DNA of 51,641 nucleotides. It comes from an uncultured Planctomycetaceae bacterium (GTDB lineage: Bacteria > Planctomycetota > Planctomycetia > Gemmatales > Gemmataceae). How positions within the stretch are numbered: position 1 is the stretch's first letter; each line of letters starts with the position of its first letter. Position numbers and translations under genes: made by a program. The notes beneath the pieces were generated by a model that was given only the letters and a program-made list of their open reading frames with translations, was not told the DNA's origin and searched no databases. The DNA lies in assembly GCA_937888715.1 (NCBI GenBank), contig CALARU010000381.1:1-51641 (forward strand), in the 5' to 3' direction. Shown piece after piece: positions 18,983 to 28,879 of the stretch.

Positions 18983-21900
18983 TTACCGAGCAAGAACGCT
19001 ACCATTATTACTAAAATTACTGGATGGGCCAACATAGCGCCCACCACCTGAAGCAATAGTAGGAAGAATTTCAAAAGTAAAACCAAAATTATCTTGCATT
19101 GCGTTATAGGTAAAACCAAGGCTGACCTGAAGATCCGTACCAACCCTGGTAAGCACAAGAGAATTGCTCACACTTTGAAAAGTGGCAAAATCATAAGTAC
19201 TACTTCCAGTAACAGCATACTTGGGGCTAAAAATGTAAGTTGCAGCGCCAGTCAGCGCCTTACTTTCCACTGGTTCAATACTTCGATAACCAAGATAAAA
19301 ATTAGTGCGGTCAGATCGATTTAAGTAGCCACCGAGAGTAAATACTTTTGCACCGTTATCCATTGGGTCAACCCATCCGGTGCTTGTAAAACTGGTACGG
19401 TCACCAATATTCCAAAGGTAATCGTATTGGAGAAAAGCGAGGTAGTTCCCAAAGTTGTTCTGGTTTTTTTCAGGAAAAAACGAACCGGAAAGATCAAGGA
19501 CCATCCAATCCACAATATGCTGGCTACCAGGAAAACCACGCTTAGTCTGCAAGCGCTGCCTGATATCCCCTTGAATAACTTGAATCTGATTAAGCGTATC
19601 AATGCGCGTATCAATGTTTCTGCGAATTGCATAAATCTGGGGATCAAAATAAGGATTGTTAGTCGTAAGAAGGTTACTGTTAAACGCATTCGGATAGATC
19701 GTTGGTTGATTGCGAATATCACGCAAAGCCTGATCAGAAGCGTCATCATTCAATCGATCAAGCTGTGCAAAATTCGAATATTGAGCAGAAGAAGAAGCAT
19801 TGAAGTAGTTGATACTATTTACAACTTTATGATTAATCCCATTAACATTAAACAGCTCAGATTTAAATTCTGGATATGCTGCAGTAAAAGGCAAGCTGGC
19901 ACGAATACCACCACCACCCCAAGCTCTGCCTAATGTATCCCCTGAAAGATCGTTAGTATAAAGCGCAAGATCACCCTTGATGTATGGGGCTATTTTCAAG
20001 CCGCCCAAATTAAATGGGGCGCTTAATTCTTCACTAACATTAAATCTTCCTGTACTATTTTCAACATCTGTTAATGGGCTAACAACTGGTGTTCCATCAT
20101 TAGTAATCAACAAATTGGCGTAAGCAGCTCCGCCCCAAGTGCTGGAAGTAAAAATATCAAATAGCGGCTGGCCTAAAATAAATCCATCAAGCCGGGGCAA
20201 CCAATTCGTTTCATTTATCCAAGGGCGAGTTCTGACTTCCCCCATAACATACCAACCCATATTCTGATCTGTCTGCCTAAGATATGCCCAAGTATCTTGA
20301 TTTATCCCGTTATCCCATTCAGGTTTAAAAAACTGTTCAATGTAGTTGCGGTCACTTATCCCAGCAGCCTGTCCAAGAAAAGTAAATCCGTTTGACATAT
20401 CAGAAATACCCTGACGCCAAAGAATCCTTCCTCGATACTCTGGATGCGGTTCACCAACTGTACGGCCACCACCAAGATTATCTGGTCCGTTGTCAATGAT
20501 GCCATAAACTTTTGCGAGGCCGTTGACTTTACCTGGAATGCCAAAAAAATCTGGTGCCAGATAATCAAAATCAGAACCCAAACCAGGGCCCCGTTTGGTC
20601 AAATAATCGATATCGAAACGCCATCTTGTATTTTCGTAAGGCTGAATACCTAAAAGGTCAAACGCATTGAGTGTAAGACCGAACTGACCACCAAAGATGT
20701 TGTTAAAACCTAAATTAACCCCTTCAATCGGGCCTAAAGGATCACGTCCATCACCCTGAAGGTAAGGAAGATAAAAGATTGGGAAGTTTTCCAACTCAAT
20801 AAACATGTTTTTGGCACGAACATAACTTTCTTTCTGATCAAGTTCCTGCTCTGTATTCCTATCAACAAATCGTTTACCAAAGATAGAAAACTTAGGAATT
20901 GTACGTTCTTCGATCGTGGCTTCTGCAACATAAATCTTTAAGCCAGGATCCGCAGGCATCTTGCTTGAAAAAACTTCTGCTTTAACAACTTTGTATTGAT
21001 TGGCTGCAAGTTGTTGTATTTCCTTGGCCCGAACAAATAATGGATCCGTAAGTTTTGGTTGATAAAATTCTAACTCGCCGTTCAACGCAACAGCAGTATT
21101 ACGACCAATATCGTAGTAAACTTCGTCAGCGCGTATAATCCGAATTTCGCCCGCATCAGATCCTGTTTTATTCCCTGGCTTTGCAGGGTCTTGCTGTCTG
21201 ATTTCAACATGGCCTGACAAATACAGCTCTAATTCCTTGCCCGATTGATTAGTTTGCTTCTTAAGATTTCCGATAATCTCTTGTGGATTTGCACCTTTAG
21301 TCCAAATAACCAAACGATCTGCTTCAATATCAACCAAGCCAATCCCTGCAACATCCTTGACATTCATGATAACACCGCCCGAAACAATTACCGCTTGCTC
21401 ACCATTTCCCAAAGGCTCCATCCTGATGTTGAACCCAGATGAACCACGCGGAGAAACGCTGTACTGACGAGCAGGTGTATCAATACCTGGTGCTGTAATT
21501 GGTAAGGTAACACCACCCGGAATGCCAATAGGGGGTGTAACTTGAACAGTGCCAGGAAGTGGGTTCTGCAAAACCGGGGCAGGATTAACAGGAACAACTC
21601 CTGGATTATTCTGATAAGAAGTTGTGACTAGTGCAGGGGCAACAATTGGCGCAATAACCGGCAAAGCAATCTGGGGAACATTTTCCGGAGGAAGCTGAGA
21701 TACCGGCTTGGGCTTTTCTTCACTAGGCTTGGCTGGAGGAATCACTTTCTCAGGAATAATCTTTTGCGATTTTTGCTGCTCAGCAACAGATTTAGCTTTT
21801 CCTTCCTGAGCTGCTTTAAAAAGCGGACCCGCAGAACAATCTTTTTGTTCAACTTTACTTTTAACTGCATTAAAACGAAACTCGCCTCGAGTCGCCAAAT

Positions 21901-22327
21901 CAATATATGCAGTTTTGGCATTTCGCACCTCCACGGAACTATCTATTTTAACATTCCCATCCACATACATTCCAAGTTCCCAAATGCCACGCATTTTGTA
22001 GGATTCTATATCAGCTACAATTAATGCTTGATCCCCTCGGATTTGCAAAACACTTTGCTCGAGGAAGACATGACCTTTTAACAACAAATAATACTTAGAT
22101 TTATCCGACCAAGAAGAAATGGAATCGGCATCGACTCGAATAGGCTTTGAATCACCTGGGATTTTGCGTTGAAAAGTGGCGAAAGGTTCAATTTGAGCCG
22201 AAGTCTTACCTTGAGCTGTTTTTTTATCAGGTGCAATAACCTGAAATGCCTGCAACTGCCCAAAGCAGTAAAAAGCAGCAAGCAAAAAAGCAGAAAACAG
22301 CAAGTAAGGCTTTTGTCGCAACAACAC
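18983..22327 (-). CDS. LptD-like outer-membrane LPS assembly protein
   Basis: Large exported protein of 1114 residues. Domains in order are a signal peptide (about 1-27), an OstA/LptA-like beta-taco region (about 38-165, with VDADSISSW and LKGHVFLEQSVLQIRGD), a Pro-rich linker (about 190-290), a second OstA-like region (about 320-470) and a C-terminal beta-barrel from about 480. The barrel contains the LptD-like PIFYLPYLQGD stretch and many alternating aromatic strands. LptD delivers LPS to the outer surface. The cysteines that form the interdomain disulfides in E. coli LptD are absent from the barrel. The start is GTG with GGGGGAGG nine bases upstream. lpxD and lpxI elsewhere in the window support an LPS-making envelope. 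The homology is confident at family level; LPS transport itself is inferred. Confidence 0.85.
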   Translation of the reverse strand: MLLRQKPYLLFSAFLLAAFYCFGQLQAFQVIAPDKKTAQGKTSAQIEPFATFQRKIPGDSKPIRVDADSISSWSDKSKYYLLLKGHVFLEQSVLQIRGDQALIVADIESYKMRGIWELGMYVDGNVKIDSSVEVRNAKTAYIDLATRGEFRFNAVKSKVEQKDCSAGPLFKAAQEGKAKSVAEQQKSQKIIPEKVIPPAKPSEEKPKPVSQLPPENVPQIALPVIAPIVAPALVTTSYQNNPGVVPVNPAPVLQNPLPGTVQVTPPIGIPGGVTLPITAPGIDTPARQYSVSPRGSSGFNIRMEPLGNGEQAVIVSGGVIMNVKDVAGIGLVDIEADRLVIWTKGANPQEIIGNLKKQTNQSGKELELYLSGHVEIRQQDPAKPGNKTGSDAGEIRIIRADEVYYDIGRNTAVALNGELEFYQPKLTDPLFVRAKEIQQLAANQYKVVKAEVFSSKMPADPGLKIYVAEATIEERTIPKFSIFGKRFVDRNTEQELDQKESYVRAKNMFIELENFPIFYLPYLQGDGRDPLGPIEGVNLGFNNIFGGQFGLTLNAFDLLGIQPYENTRWRFDIDYLTKRGPGLGSDFDYLAPDFFGIPGKVNGLAKVYGIIDNGPDNLGGGRTVGEPHPEYRGRILWRQGISDMSNGFTFLGQAAGISDRNYIEQFFKPEWDNGINQDTWAYLRQTDQNMGWYVMGEVRTRPWINETNWLPRLDGFILGQPLFDIFTSSTWGGAAYANLLITNDGTPVVSPLTDVENSTGRFNVSEELSAPFNLGGLKIAPYIKGDLALYTNDLSGDTLGRAWGGGGIRASLPFTAAYPEFKSELFNVNGINHKVVNSINYFNASSSAQYSNFAQLDRLNDDASDQALRDIRNQPTIYPNAFNSNLLTTNNPYFDPQIYAIRRNIDTRIDTLNQIQVIQGDIRQRLQTKRGFPGSQHIVDWMVLDLSGSFFPEKNQNNFGNYLAFLQYDYLWNIGDRTSFTSTGWVDPMDNGAKVFTLGGYLNRSDRTNFYLGYRSIEPVESKALTGAATYIFSPKYAVTGSSTYDFATFQSVSNSLVLTRVGTDLQVSLGFTYNAMQDNFGFTFEILPTIASGGGRYVGPSSNFSNNGSVLAR

Positions 22328-22508: not shown

Positions 22509-25010
22509 TTATCGATCCCGACTACTTCTTCCTCTGCGGAAAGGAGCTTCACCTTGAGGCCCCCTGTCTGAATTGGAAGGAATAAATCGCCCGCCTCTGC
22601 GCAATGGTGGCGGTTCAGGAAGAGGATGAATTTTAAGCTCGTTACCATTGGCATCAACACAAAAGACTTCGAGCAATTCAGGGGGCACACCAATTTCGCC
22701 TCGAACAGAAATGCCCACTTTAGCATCGTCCTCGAGTTTGCCCAGCTCTTTTCTTTTGTTATTTAAAAGATAGTCAGCGGTTTCAGCAGCCACGCGTACT
22801 CGAACCGTAGCAACGGCTTCTTTAAAGGCCGCAAGTTGCACCAAACGCATAACTTCAATCCCCATGCTTTCACTTGTTTTAACTTGAGCCATGCCTTTGC
22901 AATAAGGGCAATCATGGTAGACACTGCGCTTAAGCGAAGGCCTGATTCTTTGCCTAGTCATTTCGATAATGCCAAAAGGTGAAATCCTAAGGATTTTGGT
23001 TTTAGCACGATCCCGCATAACATTATCCCGCATGGCATTTTCAACAGCCCTACGGTGTTTTTCGTCCCGCATGTCAATAAAGTCATTGACAATAACGCCC
23101 CCAAGATCTCGAAGCCGAAGTTGCCTGGTGATCTCTCGTGCCGCCTGCATATTCATACGGAAAGCAGTATCTTCAGCGTTACTTTCAGATCTAAAATTCC
23201 CACTATTCACATCAATTGCAACCAAGGCCTCGGTTTGTTCGATGACAATAGATCCACCCATAGGAAGGGGGATTTTTTTCATTTGAATTTTAGCGAGTTC
23301 TTCCTCAATCGCATAGTGATGAAACAAAGGCCTTTTGTTGTCGTGAAATTTAACCCTATCAGCAAATCTAGGCATCACAAACTGTAGAAATTCCTGTGCG
23401 TGCTCAAATGCAGTTTTCTCATCCACAACAATTTCGTCTATATCACTAGTAAAAGTATCGCGTATGGTACGAGTGACCATGTCGCTTTCTTCGTATATTC
23501 CAGCAGGGCCTTTTACCTTTACAATACGCTTAGCAACAACTTGCCACAGCCTTGCAAGATAAGCCAGATCTCGCTGAAGTTCGGTTTTATTACGATCAAT
23601 TCCAGCGGTACGAATAATAAACCCAACACCTTTAGGTGGTTTAAGGTCTACAAAAATATCTTTAAGCCTTCTGCGCTGATCTTCATCAGTAATTTTTCTT
23701 GAAACGCCAACCCTATGCAATCCAGGCATAAGAACCAAATACCTGCCAGCAATACTAATATAGGTGCTAAGCGTGGGGCCTTTATTGCCAATGCCATCTT
23801 TAATTACCTGAACAAGAACTTCCTGCCCCTTCTTGAAAATTTCCTGAATCATGGGCTTGGGATTACCCAAAAGCCTTCCGCCTCGGGTGTTACCTCGCAT
23901 CGGTTTTCCGCTACTTCTACCCTGATCGCGAGCGCCTTCCCTAGAACCGGAAGAATAGCCACCACCCGAAGGCCTGCGCTGATTTCCGCCTCTACTACCA
24001 CCCCGGTTACGATTATCCCCACCGCGTTGATCGCGCTGTGGACCGCGAGAATCACGCTGCCCGCGGGCGTCGCGAGACTGGGGATCTTGGCCGTCTTCAT
24101 CCTGATTATCGTCATCATGTTCAACATTTTCATCTGCGTCAAATGATTGGTCAACCTCTTGTGTATCCTCTTCAACATCATCATCAAAGTTATCATTTGG
24201 GGTAAGAGGTTGCTGGTTTTGCTGAAAAACAGGTTCCTCGAATGAATCTGATTTATCGGGAGAAGATTTATGAGCGGGAGGATTGGACCGAGTTGGCCTC
24301 GAGAAAAGTAGATCATCACTTTCGGTTTCTCCCGGCCCATCGGAATCAGAATCGCCATCGCTTGTGATTCTATTTGCAGAAGGCATCACCGAAGTATCGT
24401 TATCATCGGGCCCAAAATCGTCTTCATCAGGTTCATCATCAGACAACCCAGCACCAAAAGTAACCGAGTCATCAGAATTCGAACTAATCGAAGAATCCGA
24501 ATCATGGTCTATAAAATCACTTCTATTTTCAAATGCAAGATCGTCTTGCTCTTCGAATAACTCGCCGCCAAATTCAGGAGCATTGGAAATGGGAAGTTGA
24601 TCTTCTAAAGGCAAGTTTTCAACATCTGGAATATTACCCTTATCAAAGGGCTTGCTTCGTGGCCCACGGCTTGAACCGCCATTGGAGCCACCGCCATTGG
24701 AACTCCCACGCCTTGGCCTGCGATCTTCGCGCTCTTCGTCTTCGTTATCTTCTTTGAACCCATCAAGATGCTTGTAATAGGTTGGCTCCACATCGGAAAC
24801 ATGCAAGAAACCATTCCGACCAATACCAAAATCAACAAAGGCAGCCTGAATACTGGGTTCAATATTTACGATCTTTCCTTTATAAATATTTCCCACATAA
24901 CTTTCATGAGTATTTCTCTCAACATAAAGCTCTTCGAGGATACCATTTTCCAGAATTGCAATACGGCACTCTTCGGGCTGCAAAACATTGATCAACATAA
25001 CTTTTTTCAT
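22509..25010 (-). CDS. rne: Ribonuclease E/G with a large S1-domain insertion
   Basis: Endoribonuclease that starts mRNA decay and processes rRNA. The S1 domain begins at about residue 35 (VGNIYKGKIVNIEPS, FVDFG, FLHVSD), is interrupted after about 84, and resumes near 386 (FKKGQEVLVQVIKD, GPTLSTYISIAGRY). Catalytic Asp600 (AIDVNSG) and Asp643 (VNDFIDMRD) and the zinc-link Cys701/Cys704 (CPYCKG) are spaced 43, 58 and 3 apart. This equals E. coli RNase E residues 303, 346, 404 and 407, each shifted by exactly 297. The insertion is acidic in its first two thirds and Arg/Gly-rich at the end. There is no long C-terminal scaffold region; only a short basic Pro/Arg tail follows. It lies downstream of a small hypothetical gene. 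Confidence 0.95.
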   Translation of the reverse strand: MKKVMLINVLQPEECRIAILENGILEELYVERNTHESYVGNIYKGKIVNIEPSIQAAFVDFGIGRNGFLHVSDVEPTYYKHLDGFKEDNEDEEREDRRPRRGSSNGGGSNGGSSRGPRSKPFDKGNIPDVENLPLEDQLPISNAPEFGGELFEEQDDLAFENRSDFIDHDSDSSISSNSDDSVTFGAGLSDDEPDEDDFGPDDNDTSVMPSANRITSDGDSDSDGPGETESDDLLFSRPTRSNPPAHKSSPDKSDSFEEPVFQQNQQPLTPNDNFDDDVEEDTQEVDQSFDADENVEHDDDNQDEDGQDPQSRDARGQRDSRGPQRDQRGGDNRNRGGSRGGNQRRPSGGGYSSGSREGARDQGRSSGKPMRGNTRGGRLLGNPKPMIQEIFKKGQEVLVQVIKDGIGNKGPTLSTYISIAGRYLVLMPGLHRVGVSRKITDEDQRRRLKDIFVDLKPPKGVGFIIRTAGIDRNKTELQRDLAYLARLWQVVAKRIVKVKGPAGIYEESDMVTRTIRDTFTSDIDEIVVDEKTAFEHAQEFLQFVMPRFADRVKFHDNKRPLFHHYAIEEELAKIQMKKIPLPMGGSIVIEQTEALVAIDVNSGNFRSESNAEDTAFRMNMQAAREITRQLRLRDLGGVIVNDFIDMRDEKHRRAVENAMRDNVMRDRAKTKILRISPFGIIEMTRQRIRPSLKRSVYHDCPYCKGMAQVKTSESMGIEVMRLVQLAAFKEAVATVRVRVAAETADYLLNNKRKELGKLEDDAKVGISVRGEIGVPPELLEVFCVDANGNELKIHPLPEPPPLRRGGRFIPSNSDRGPQGEAPFRRGRSSRDR

Positions 25011-25845: not shown

Positions 25846-27597
25846 TTAATACATCAATGAGTCAGGCATAAGCTTCCGGGTCTGTTCCCGCAAATAATTG
25901 TTTACATCACGCGCAGTCTGTTGGCGCATAGCTTCTTTGGCAACATTTTCGGCATCTTTAAGGTTCACCATCCGGATAAATTGCTTTATCTCCGGTATAC
26001 TATGCGGTGAAACACTCAACTGCCTAATTCCTAAGCCAAGAAACAACATTGTATATATCAGGTCTCCACTCATCTCGCCACACACATTCAAGGCAACATT
26101 GGAGTGTTTCGCAGACTTAACAACCATTTCAATCAACCGCAAAACGGCAGGATCTCCTGGATTGTATAACGAGGCAACATCCTCGTTGGACCTATCTGCT
26201 GCTAGAGTGTACTGTACCAAATCATTTGTGCCAATGGAAAAGAAACTCACTTCTTTTGCCATTAATTCTGAAAGAATGGCAGCAGAAGGAACCTCAATCA
26301 TAGTTCCAATAGGAATATCCTTATTAAAGGGCACTTTTTCCTCAAAAAGGTCTTCTTTAACCTCTGAAACGATCATTTTGGCCTGTCGAAGCTCCAAAAC
26401 CGTGGAAATCATAGGGAAAAGCAACTGAATATTACCATAAACACTAGCGCGCAAAATCGCCCTAAGTTGGGTTTTAAATAAGCCAATATTTCTAAGACAA
26501 AGCCTAATACTTCGAAGACCAAGGAACGGATTCTTTTCGGGGGCGTGCAAATTAGAAAAAGCAGATAATTTGTCGCCACCTAAATCCAAAGTCCGGATCA
26601 CCACCGGCCTATCCTTTCCCATGGCTTGAACCACTTCCTTGTAAGCCGCAAATTGCTCATCTTCAGTAGGAACAGCATCTTTTCCCATGAAAAGAAATTC
26701 CGTTCTATAAAGCCCTATTCCCTGGGCCCCTTTATCAAGACAATGCTTGGTTTCATGTGGAAACTCAATATTTCCAAGCAACTTAATCTCAACACCATCC
26801 TGAGTAATTGCAGGAAGATCACGAAGACTTTCAAGGGAAGCATCTAGCGAAACTATATCCGTTTGCGTTTTTTGGTACCTACGCAAGGTTTCGGCATCGG
26901 GGTCGATGATAAGGAGACCAGCATTACCATCCACAATCACAATATCCCCGCCAGTCACCTCGGAAATAAATCTCCCCAAGCCAACAACAGCTGGTATTTC
27001 CAAGGCACCAGCCAAAATAGAGGTGTGACTTGTCCTACCACCCGCCTCCGTCGCAAAAGCATGCACCAGTTTGGTGTTTAACTTTGCAGTCTCACTGGGG
27101 GAAAGATCATGTGCAAGAATAACGACGGGCTCATTCAAGGAATTAAGGCCTTCCTTACGTTGCCCGATCAACTTCCCAAGAATTTGTTTTTCAATGTCAA
27201 ATAGGTCTGTGACGCACAATGCCATTCTTGCATCAGGAAGACTTTGTATTTCTTTAATATGCTTACGCATTACCAGACTGAGTGCGTATTCTGCGGTAAA
27301 GAATTTTTTCGAAATCAATGATTCAATTTCGCCAAGAAGAAAAGGATCTTCAATCATTTGGGCATGGGCACCTAAAATAGCACCGTACTGCGTACCAACT
27401 TTGGCAGCAATTATAGCTTGATTTGAACGCACCTCGATTGCTGCGTCTCGAATCCCAATCTTAAGCCGTTCAAATTCAGCTACTACTTCAGAAGCACTGA
27501 TCGACCTTTGGGGAATCAAATACCCTTCGGTGTCAAGCAACAAAGCAGGGCCTATGACAACCCCAGGATAAACGGGTATTCCTCGATAAACTTCCAT
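25846..27597 (-). CDS. ptsI: Phosphoenolpyruvate-protein phosphotransferase (EI)
   Basis: Cytoplasmic Enzyme I, which takes phosphate from PEP and passes it to HPr. It has the usual length. The phosphohistidine lies in GGRTSHTS (His191 counting from this start; His189 in E. coli), after the HPr-binding helical region. The PEP-binding barrel shows IGLYRTEFLFM, VVIRTLDLGGDK, GLRSIRLCL, GTMIEVPSA, SIGTNDLVQY and the catalytic VCGEMSGD. There is no N-terminal GAF domain, so it is the ordinary EI form and not PtsP. The ATG at 27597 was chosen because AAGG lies five bases upstream; a GTG two codons earlier is possible. It closes the hpf-ptsN-ptsH-ptsI run. Confidence 0.96.
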   Translation of the reverse strand: MEVYRGIPVYPGVVIGPALLLDTEGYLIPQRSISASEVVAEFERLKIGIRDAAIEVRSNQAIIAAKVGTQYGAILGAHAQMIEDPFLLGEIESLISKKFFTAEYALSLVMRKHIKEIQSLPDARMALCVTDLFDIEKQILGKLIGQRKEGLNSLNEPVVILAHDLSPSETAKLNTKLVHAFATEAGGRTSHTSILAGALEIPAVVGLGRFISEVTGGDIVIVDGNAGLLIIDPDAETLRRYQKTQTDIVSLDASLESLRDLPAITQDGVEIKLLGNIEFPHETKHCLDKGAQGIGLYRTEFLFMGKDAVPTEDEQFAAYKEVVQAMGKDRPVVIRTLDLGGDKLSAFSNLHAPEKNPFLGLRSIRLCLRNIGLFKTQLRAILRASVYGNIQLLFPMISTVLELRQAKMIVSEVKEDLFEEKVPFNKDIPIGTMIEVPSAAILSELMAKEVSFFSIGTNDLVQYTLAADRSNEDVASLYNPGDPAVLRLIEMVVKSAKHSNVALNVCGEMSGDLIYTMLFLGLGIRQLSVSPHSIPEIKQFIRMVNLKDAENVAKEAMRQQTARDVNNYLREQTRKLMPDSLMY

Positions 27598-27627
27598 CAG
27601 CACCTTGTTCCAAACAAATAAACAGCA

Positions 27628-27921
27628 TCAATCCAAAATAGATACATCATCCTCTGCGAGAACTTTTTCAAGTTCTTGCAAGGCCAAATGTGAGTCAGAT
27701 CCAAAAACTTCGAGAGTCACTTCGCTATCTTCACCTGCAGCAACAAGCATAAGTTCGAACATGCTTTTGCCATTAAAAACCTGACCTTCCCAGATCAATT
27801 TAACTTCAGAAGCAAAACGGGATGCGGCCTCAACAAATGCAGCTTTAGGCCGCATATGAAACCCGTTTGGGTTTTTAATTTTAACAACGCTCTTCAGAAG
27901 TTCATGGCTCGCATCTTCCAC
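27628..27921 (-). CDS. ptsH: Phosphocarrier protein HPr
   Basis: Small phosphocarrier between EI and EIIA proteins, about 97 residues. The active histidine is in NPNGFHMRPKAAF. The serine in NGKSMFEL lies 31 residues after that histidine, exactly as His15 and Ser46 do in classical HPr, so both the catalytic and the regulatory phosphorylation sites are present. A longer frame reaches a TTG at 27960 that lacks a ribosome site. The GTG at 27921 has GGAGA seven bases upstream and gives a near-normal length, so it is used here. It sits between ptsN and ptsI. The final residues are acidic (LAEDDVSILD). Confidence 0.93.
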   Translation of the reverse strand: MEDASHELLKSVVKIKNPNGFHMRPKAAFVEAASRFASEVKLIWEGQVFNGKSMFELMLVAAGEDSEVTLEVFGSDSHLALQELEKVLAEDDVSILD

Positions 27922-27928
27922 CAAAAGA

Positions 27929-27933
27929 TCTCC
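27929..27933 (-). promoter_or_regulatory. Ribosome binding site deciding the ptsH start
   Basis: GGAGA on the minus strand, seven bases before the GTG at 27921. The upstream TTG in the same frame has no such site. Confidence 0.65.
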
Positions 27934-27961
27934 AATAATTTCCCCAACCAAAACTGGCAAA

Positions 27962-28426
27962 CTACATTTTTGAGTACTGATTCATCTGCTCAAACAATTG
28001 ATCGGCAGTGGTACAGGCCCTTAAAGCCTTTACCAAAGGATCATCGCGAAGTACTCTCGAAACAGTTTCAAGTGCTCTCAAATGGACTACAGGTTGATCA
28101 ACAGGGGAAATGATCAGTACAAACACAAAGACTGGTTCTCCATCTCTGCTGCCAAAACTAACCCCCGAAGGAGAAATTCCCAAAACCCCAACTAATTTGT
28201 CTACGCCACTGTATTTCGTATGAGGAATGGCAATTCCATCACCAATACCAGTTGACCCTAGCAATTCTCGTTTTAGAACGGCTTTGATTATGTCTTCAAC
28301 ATCCACATCCTTAAAGCAACCATTGCGACAGAGGCTTTCTAAAAGCTCTCGAATCACGCCTTCTTTATCGGTGGCATTAAGTTCTGGAACAATGGCAGAA
28401 CGCACTATGAAGTCCGACATTCGCAT
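27962..28426 (-). CDS. ptsN: PTS-Ntr EIIA domain protein
   Basis: Single-domain EIIA of the nitrogen/fructose type, 154 residues. It receives phosphate from HPr and acts as a regulator, for example of potassium transport or stress responses in other bacteria, and not in sugar uptake. The phosphohistidine is in the conserved GSTGIGDGIAIPHTK stretch. SPVDQPVVHLRALETVSRVLRD is the other well-known block (shown as two parts, SPVDQPVVHL and LETVSRVL). The ATG is preceded by GGTGA six bases away. It lies between hpf and ptsH, the arrangement of a PTS-Ntr operon. No membrane EIIB or EIIC component is in the window. Confidence 0.95.
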   Translation of the reverse strand: MRMSDFIVRSAIVPELNATDKEGVIRELLESLCRNGCFKDVDVEDIIKAVLKRELLGSTGIGDGIAIPHTKYSGVDKLVGVLGISPSGVSFGSRDGEPVFVFVLIISPVDQPVVHLRALETVSRVLRDDPLVKALRACTTADQLFEQMNQYSKM

Positions 28427-28462
28427 TTTGATTCACCATCCCTCTCATCTAAAATGCAATAT

Positions 28463-28792
28463 TTAAAGTGATTTGGGAAGTTCACCCATTGGCGGTGTTT
28501 TACGATGGTCTTGTATCTTTTCCTTGTACTTCCGAATCTGATGCTCAACCTTATCGATCACTAAATCCACAGCCGTGTAAAGGTCTGGATTTTCTTCCTT
28601 CGCAAAAAAATCATGTTTATGCTCGGCATTAACAGCAAGTTCAACCACTTTCATATCTTTTTGATGATCTAATGTTACTTCAATCATGGATATACGGGCA
28701 AAAAAGTGGAGAAGTTTCCCTGCTTTTTCTTGGATATGCTTTTGAACTTCCTCACTAACATGGCCATGTCGAGTCGAAATTTTAATTTGCAC
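28463..28792 (-). CDS. hpf: Ribosome hibernation-promoting factor (short form)
   Basis: Ribosome-associated sigma-54 modulation/HPF family protein of 109 residues, which parks inactive ribosomes under starvation. It starts with QIKISTRHGHV, has the beta-alpha-beta pattern with EVTLDHQKDMKVVELAV and ends its domain with AVDLVIDKVEHQIRKYKEKIQ. There is no C-terminal dimerisation domain, so it is the short type. A longer frame begins at 28855, but AGGAGA six bases before the GTG at 28792 and the standard family N-terminus support the shorter start. It heads the ptsN-ptsH-ptsI run, as hpf does next to ptsN in many bacteria. Confidence 0.94.
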   Translation of the reverse strand: MQIKISTRHGHVSEEVQKHIQEKAGKLLHFFARISMIEVTLDHQKDMKVVELAVNAEHKHDFFAKEENPDLYTAVDLVIDKVEHQIRKYKEKIQDHRKTPPMGELPKSL

Positions 28793-28798
28793 AATGAT

Positions 28799-28804
28799 TC
28801 TCCT
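28799..28804 (-). promoter_or_regulatory. Ribosome binding site deciding the hpf start
   Basis: AGGAGA on the minus strand, six bases before the GTG start at 28792. It is the strongest Shine-Dalgarno match near the gene. Confidence 0.8.
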
Positions 28805-28879
28805 AGGTTCAGAGTTGCCCAATTCTCTAATATGCGGGCTTTCATATAAGCTCAACCCTATTAACTTACAATCTATGCC

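Follow-up and report, generated by a model that had tools for sequence, protein, structure and literature searches.

A long insert of predicted disorder within the S1 domain of a planctomycete RNase E carries a conserved linear motif and may serve as an internal degradosome scaffold

The window analyzed here, a stretch of 51,641 nucleotides from a freshwater planctomycete, encodes the main RNA-cutting enzyme, RNase E, with an excess of about 300 residues within its S1 domain. This raises the questions of whether the additional sequence is genuine, how it is placed within the fold and which role it may play. The gene (22509..25010, minus strand, stop codon included) encodes an RNase E/G protein of 833 aa, which was matched by the Pfam models RNase_E_G (residues 419-688, E=2.9e-100) and RNase_E_G_Thio (residues 701-772), and the assignment was also backed by NCBIfam. 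The Pfam S1 match was partial and covered model positions 4-40 of 74 at query residues 39-77; the S1 domain is present and is split by the insert. In a Foldseek comparison, the model matched structures of E. coli RNase E and, over its S1/5'-sensor part, also the Caulobacter structure 4OXP. As judged by eye from the translations, the genes located upstream in the window (25846-28855, minus strand) resemble those of phosphotransferase enzyme I-, HPr- and EIIA-type proteins and of a ribosome hibernation factor. Downstream (18983-22327, minus strand), a 1114-residue open reading frame has, likewise by eye, the appearance of an outer-membrane protein of the LptD/OstA type.

In a phmmer comparison, similarity to the E. 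coli enzyme ends at query residue 79 (E. coli 78) and starts again at query residue 384 (E. coli 86; the E. coli chain 2bx2 is numbered +7), which places a net excess of 297 residues between E. coli residues 78 and 86, within S1. The catalytic residues D600 and D643 (E. coli D303 and D346) and the zinc-link residues C701 and C704 within DCPYC (E. coli C404 and C407), all located at 22899..23213 on the minus strand, are each offset by +297, and for the 5'-sensor region the offset is 298 rather than 297. The N-terminal core (residues 1-78; 24777..25010, minus strand) comprises core strands together with S1 strands 1-3 and ends in GFLHVSDVEPTYY, and the chain re-enters the S1 fold at residues 383-386 (NPKP; 23853..23864, minus strand), equivalent to E. 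coli residue 86 onward. As S1 strands were predicted at residues 41-51, 56-60 and 66-70 before the insert and at 397-403 after it, the insert represents the loop between the third and the fourth strand (residues 78-382; 23865..24779, minus strand), with a length of about 297-303 residues. A preliminary description of the locus had assigned an excess of about 300 residues to the S1 fold from an offset of exactly 297 at the catalytic and zinc-link positions and had noted it at 23856-24758 (residues 85-385); the alignment to the E. coli enzyme and the four residues above bear this out.

No known domain was identified within the insert by Pfam or NCBIfam. Its composition (13% hydrophobic or aromatic residues, 25% Asp plus Glu, a Lys plus Arg fraction of 0.11) and the AlphaFold2 model agree in predicting intrinsic disorder, as had been expected from the sequence: pLDDT was about 27-38, and thus below 50, over residues 78-382, and neither a helix nor any other secondary structure was predicted past the edge of the core. 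Most of the core was folded at moderate confidence, with a mean pLDDT of 55.9 over the whole chain. Because the input alignment was shallow (16 sequences), the low pLDDT is to be taken as support for disorder and not as proof. With regard to charge, the insert starts with a modest Arg/Gly-bearing block (about residues 94-123; 24642..24731, minus strand), which is tandemly duplicated in some sister species, continues with a strongly acidic center (about residues 135-312, limits approximate; 24075..24608, minus strand) and ends with an Arg/Gly-rich last fifth (about residues 313-382, limits approximate; 23865..24074, minus strand). The order given in the preliminary description, acidic first and then Arg/Gly-rich, therefore holds in outline and omits the first Arg/Gly block. 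As also proposed there, the C-terminal scaffold is missing: the only C-terminal extension is an Arg/Gly-rich tail (22512..22631, minus strand) of about 40 residues, which leaves no room for a long disordered region after the catalytic core. By inspection, short of a systematic search, no membrane-targeting helix was recognized.

To place the insert in a wider context, related RNase E genes were compared, using one or two per genus with both halves readable in one frame. The resulting 43 genes from 41 genera represent the Gemmatales-type order plus one genus (g13) of an outside family. RNase E/G matches were obtained in 90 of 95 genomes of the order, 84 of them above the family cut-off, the remainder being missing or fragmentary. 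All 43 readable genes had an insert at this position of the alignment, with no loss among them, and its length ranged from 151 to 775 residues (median 387). Five congeneric assemblies also contain it, with length differences that are in frame. The preliminary description had considered an insert restricted to this one genome, which is contradicted by the five congeners and the 41 genera; instead, both position and charge layout are kept across the order. The mean composition along the 43 inserts is rich in Arg and Gly in the first and the last tenth and acidic in the center. The middle carries a net negative charge in 42 of 43 inserts and the last tenth a net positive charge in 39 of 43. In 42 of 43 inserts, the density of RG/GR pairs is higher in the last fifth than in the middle, by 0.114 on average, compared with an s.d. 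of 0.004 among shuffles.

Outside the order, the same loop differs strongly in length. A model of the short planctomycete RNase E splits at about model position 80/95 in the long-insert relatives. In many other planctomycete families, RNase E has about 500 residues, matches the model in one piece and has neither scaffold nor insert. Sister families of the class have 25-80 residues in this loop, often already acidic and then Arg-rich, which indicates that the loop has grown. In the planctomycete families f24, f27, f34, f43, f47 and f73, 51-357 residues are found at the same site, and family f27 has both the insert and a C-terminal tail of 228-361 residues. The earlier suggestion that the scaffold had been moved from the C-terminus into S1 is thus not upheld, given the families with neither element, the short loops of the sister families and the co-occurrence of both in f27. 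By sequence comparison, repeated and gradual growth of one S1 loop would fit the distribution better than transfer of a C-terminal scaffold.

Several genes of these other families showed unusual reading frames. In both genomes of genus g81 of family f47 (L100 in G070 and L114 in G157), the S1 and catalytic halves are encoded in two overlapping frames at an offset of +1, and the switch falls inside the insert; the sister genera (G145 and G086) have a single frame. As the g81 assemblies consist of few contigs, uncorrected long-read errors are the simplest reading, with a programmed frameshift or a split gene as alternatives. One f27 gene (L101 in G140) is similarly split between frames within the insert, and the other f27 genomes have a single frame. 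In family f34 (L055, L057, L059 and L060), the frame reaches about 480 residues N-terminal of the core, in addition to the S1 insert.

Strings resembling MPSAERRT were first spotted by eye within the otherwise unalignable inserts, at about 0.4-0.75 of the insert length. The order-wide consensus reads PRxM[DE]SAERRT (as a peptide, PRLMDSAERRTEE). Using patterns written after the data had been viewed, the motif was present in 7 of 13 representatives (0.03 expected) and, with a slightly wider pattern, in 22 of 43 inserts (0.09 expected). A leave-one-out matrix, which is independent of the tested sequence, was compared with 200 local shuffles per insert, and 35 of the 43 inserts (33 of 41 genera) scored above all of their own shuffles. 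The top motif of an unsupervised search was again M[DE]SAERRT, recovered from 36 of 41 genera (weakly from one or two), with a total score of 1019 vs. about 660 for shuffles; later rounds yielded Arg/Gly repeats only. In about six genera the motif was not found. The gene in the window has the version MPSANRITS (residues 209-217; 24360..24386, minus strand), a degenerate yet recognizable form of the consensus that is identical in all six congeneric sequences. The genus fell just short in the leave-one-out comparison, with a score of 7.8 vs. 9.3 for the largest shuffle. A second and less widespread motif, DDLLFSRP (residues 232-239; 24294..24317, minus strand), occurred in 9 of 43 inserts with 1.2 expected. 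Two further candidates did not pass: LxDILxLPE, suspected by eye, was present in 2 of 13 representatives only, and FGAG in 3 of 13 genera only.

When a profile of the motif was run against all six frames of 61 whole genomes, the matches below E=0.01 were to RNase E with one exception, and RNase E was also recovered from genera outside the training set of the profile. The exception (G329, E=4.8e-4) is located in the C-terminal tail of an unrelated protein, ATPase-like by eye, and most likely represents a chance match. MxSAERRT was absent from the inserts of the other planctomycete families tested. The f27 inserts have a string of their own, FLDKL..GHxVTDSPL, which is unrelated to the Gemmatales motif and was found in 8 of 8 sequences (L056, L077, L078, L080 and L102-L105).

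The conserved linear motif within the insert fits the recruitment of a partner, which the preliminary description had raised as an option alongside condensate formation. In proteobacteria, the C-terminal scaffolds of RNase E bind PNPase and RhlB through short motifs and RNA through Arg-rich stretches (PMC4435900; PMC11964227), and a Caulobacter RNase E fragment with the S1 insert binds RhlB, part of this insert being located over the RNA channel (PMC4245959). Based on these two precedents, we read the insert, at roughly even chances, as a greatly enlarged disordered loop between S1 strands 3 and 4 that acts as an internal degradosome scaffold. The PRxM[DE]SAERRT motif would dock one conserved protein partner, for which PNPase and a DEAD-box helicase are candidates; according to family searches both are encoded in this genome (frames of 758 and 473 residues, respectively). 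The Arg/Gly block adjoining the S1 fold would bind RNA and feed the channel, and the acidic center may act as a spacer, repel, or self-associate with the Arg/Gly blocks. Condensation of the insert is conceivable and would not be required. In a broader version, which we put forward tentatively and regard as somewhat improbable, the loop between strands 3 and 4 is a recurrent site for building a degradosome scaffold beside the RNA channel. In Gemmatales, it would hold PRxM[DE]SAERRT as a docking motif specific to the order, to which a dedicated partner binds; other planctomycete families would have built different motif-bearing scaffolds in the same loop.

The main rival explanation, unlikely in our view though to be taken seriously, is that the insert regulates the RNA access of its own enzyme and needs no partner. 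The acidic center would mimic RNA and occupy the S1/5'-sensor channel, and the Arg/Gly blocks would capture RNA and thereby relieve the autoinhibition. The insert is indeed located where a helix with acidic side chains protrudes from the Caulobacter S1 insert into the RNA site, and the Arabidopsis enzyme becomes less active when its insert is deleted (PMC4245959); in nearly all genera, moreover, positive and negative charges occupy separate parts of the insert. However, this explanation accounts neither for a conserved motif of 8-13 residues amid unalignable sequence nor for the five-fold differences in length. Autoinhibition by the acidic center would be compatible with a role of the insert as a scaffold.

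Alternatively, the exposed loop may have expanded mostly neutrally by tandem duplication of low-complexity DNA and been tolerated as the barrel is left undisturbed. Sister species are distinguished by in-frame tandem copies within their inserts (EEREDRRPRRGSSNGGGSN, DRSSN), and lengths range from 151 to 775 residues, both in line with such growth. In contrast, none of the sampled genera with a readable gene lacks the insert, and its charge layout and motif are conserved. Moreover, four comparisons between congeners with unsaturated dS yielded a pairwise dN/dS of 0.11-0.13 in the insert vs. about 0.01 in the core; at the protein level, the insert is clearly under purifying selection, which is much weaker than that on the enzyme core. 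Mostly neutral growth therefore appears improbable. It is also rather improbable that the insert drives condensation as the counterpart of the C-terminal charge-patch region in the RNase E of alpha-proteobacteria. The formation of BR-bodies is driven there by alternating charge patches (PMC12691583), and the insert has acidic and Arg/Gly blocks, but the position in the protein is another one and the charge alternations are apparently fewer; condensate formation would be compatible with an internal scaffold, which does not depend on it. An assembly or frame error, an origin that the preliminary description had considered, can practically be ruled out by the five congeneric assemblies with in-frame insertions and deletions, the 41 sampled genera and the codon-level constraint just described.

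S1-domain inserts as such have already been published for alpha-proteobacteria and plants (PMC4245959). Within the open-access literature that we searched, nothing specific was found on the RNA degradosome or the RNase E of planctomycetes, and, as far as this search extends, the occurrence in planctomycetes, the much greater length, the missing C-terminal scaffold and the conserved motif are new. If the insert is a degradosome scaffold, the motif provides a precise handle for finding the partner. In that case it would also be clear that a central RNA-decay enzyme can carry its scaffold away from the C-terminus, grown from a loop in the RNA-binding domain.

Among the known systems, the C-terminal scaffold of gamma-proteobacterial RNase E is likewise disordered and combines Arg-rich blocks with short motifs that are conserved amid otherwise little-conserved sequence (PMC4435900, PMC11964227). 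It follows the catalytic core, whereas the insert described here is located inside S1 and has other motifs. The BR-body region of alpha-proteobacterial RNase E shares segregated charge within a disordered region (PMC12691583); that region is C-terminal and condensation has been demonstrated for it. Closest in position are the S1 inserts of alpha-proteobacteria and plants, which comprise about 50-150 charged residues predicted to be disordered (PMC4245959). This range, which is descriptive and not a functional criterion, is exceeded here (about 297-303 residues; 151-775 in the relatives). The S1 insert of the Arabidopsis chloroplast enzyme is, according to the same study (PMC4245959), likewise charged and predicted to be disordered, and its deletion lowers the activity of the plant enzyme; plant inserts are described there as highly diverse in sequence and about 50-150 residues long, and it is by this description that they are set beside the insert studied here. 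For Caulobacter crescentus RNase E (4OXP), the comparison extends to the structure, as both chains rejoin the fold at equivalent positions (query residue 385 aligns with chain residue 164). The Caulobacter insert is also charged and was predicted to be disordered, although the crystal structure shows it to be partly helical (PMC4245959). It comprises about 60 residues, as estimated from alignment positions, compared with about 300 here, and the Caulobacter enzyme has a long C-terminal scaffold, whereas the planctomycete enzyme ends in a tail of about 40 residues.
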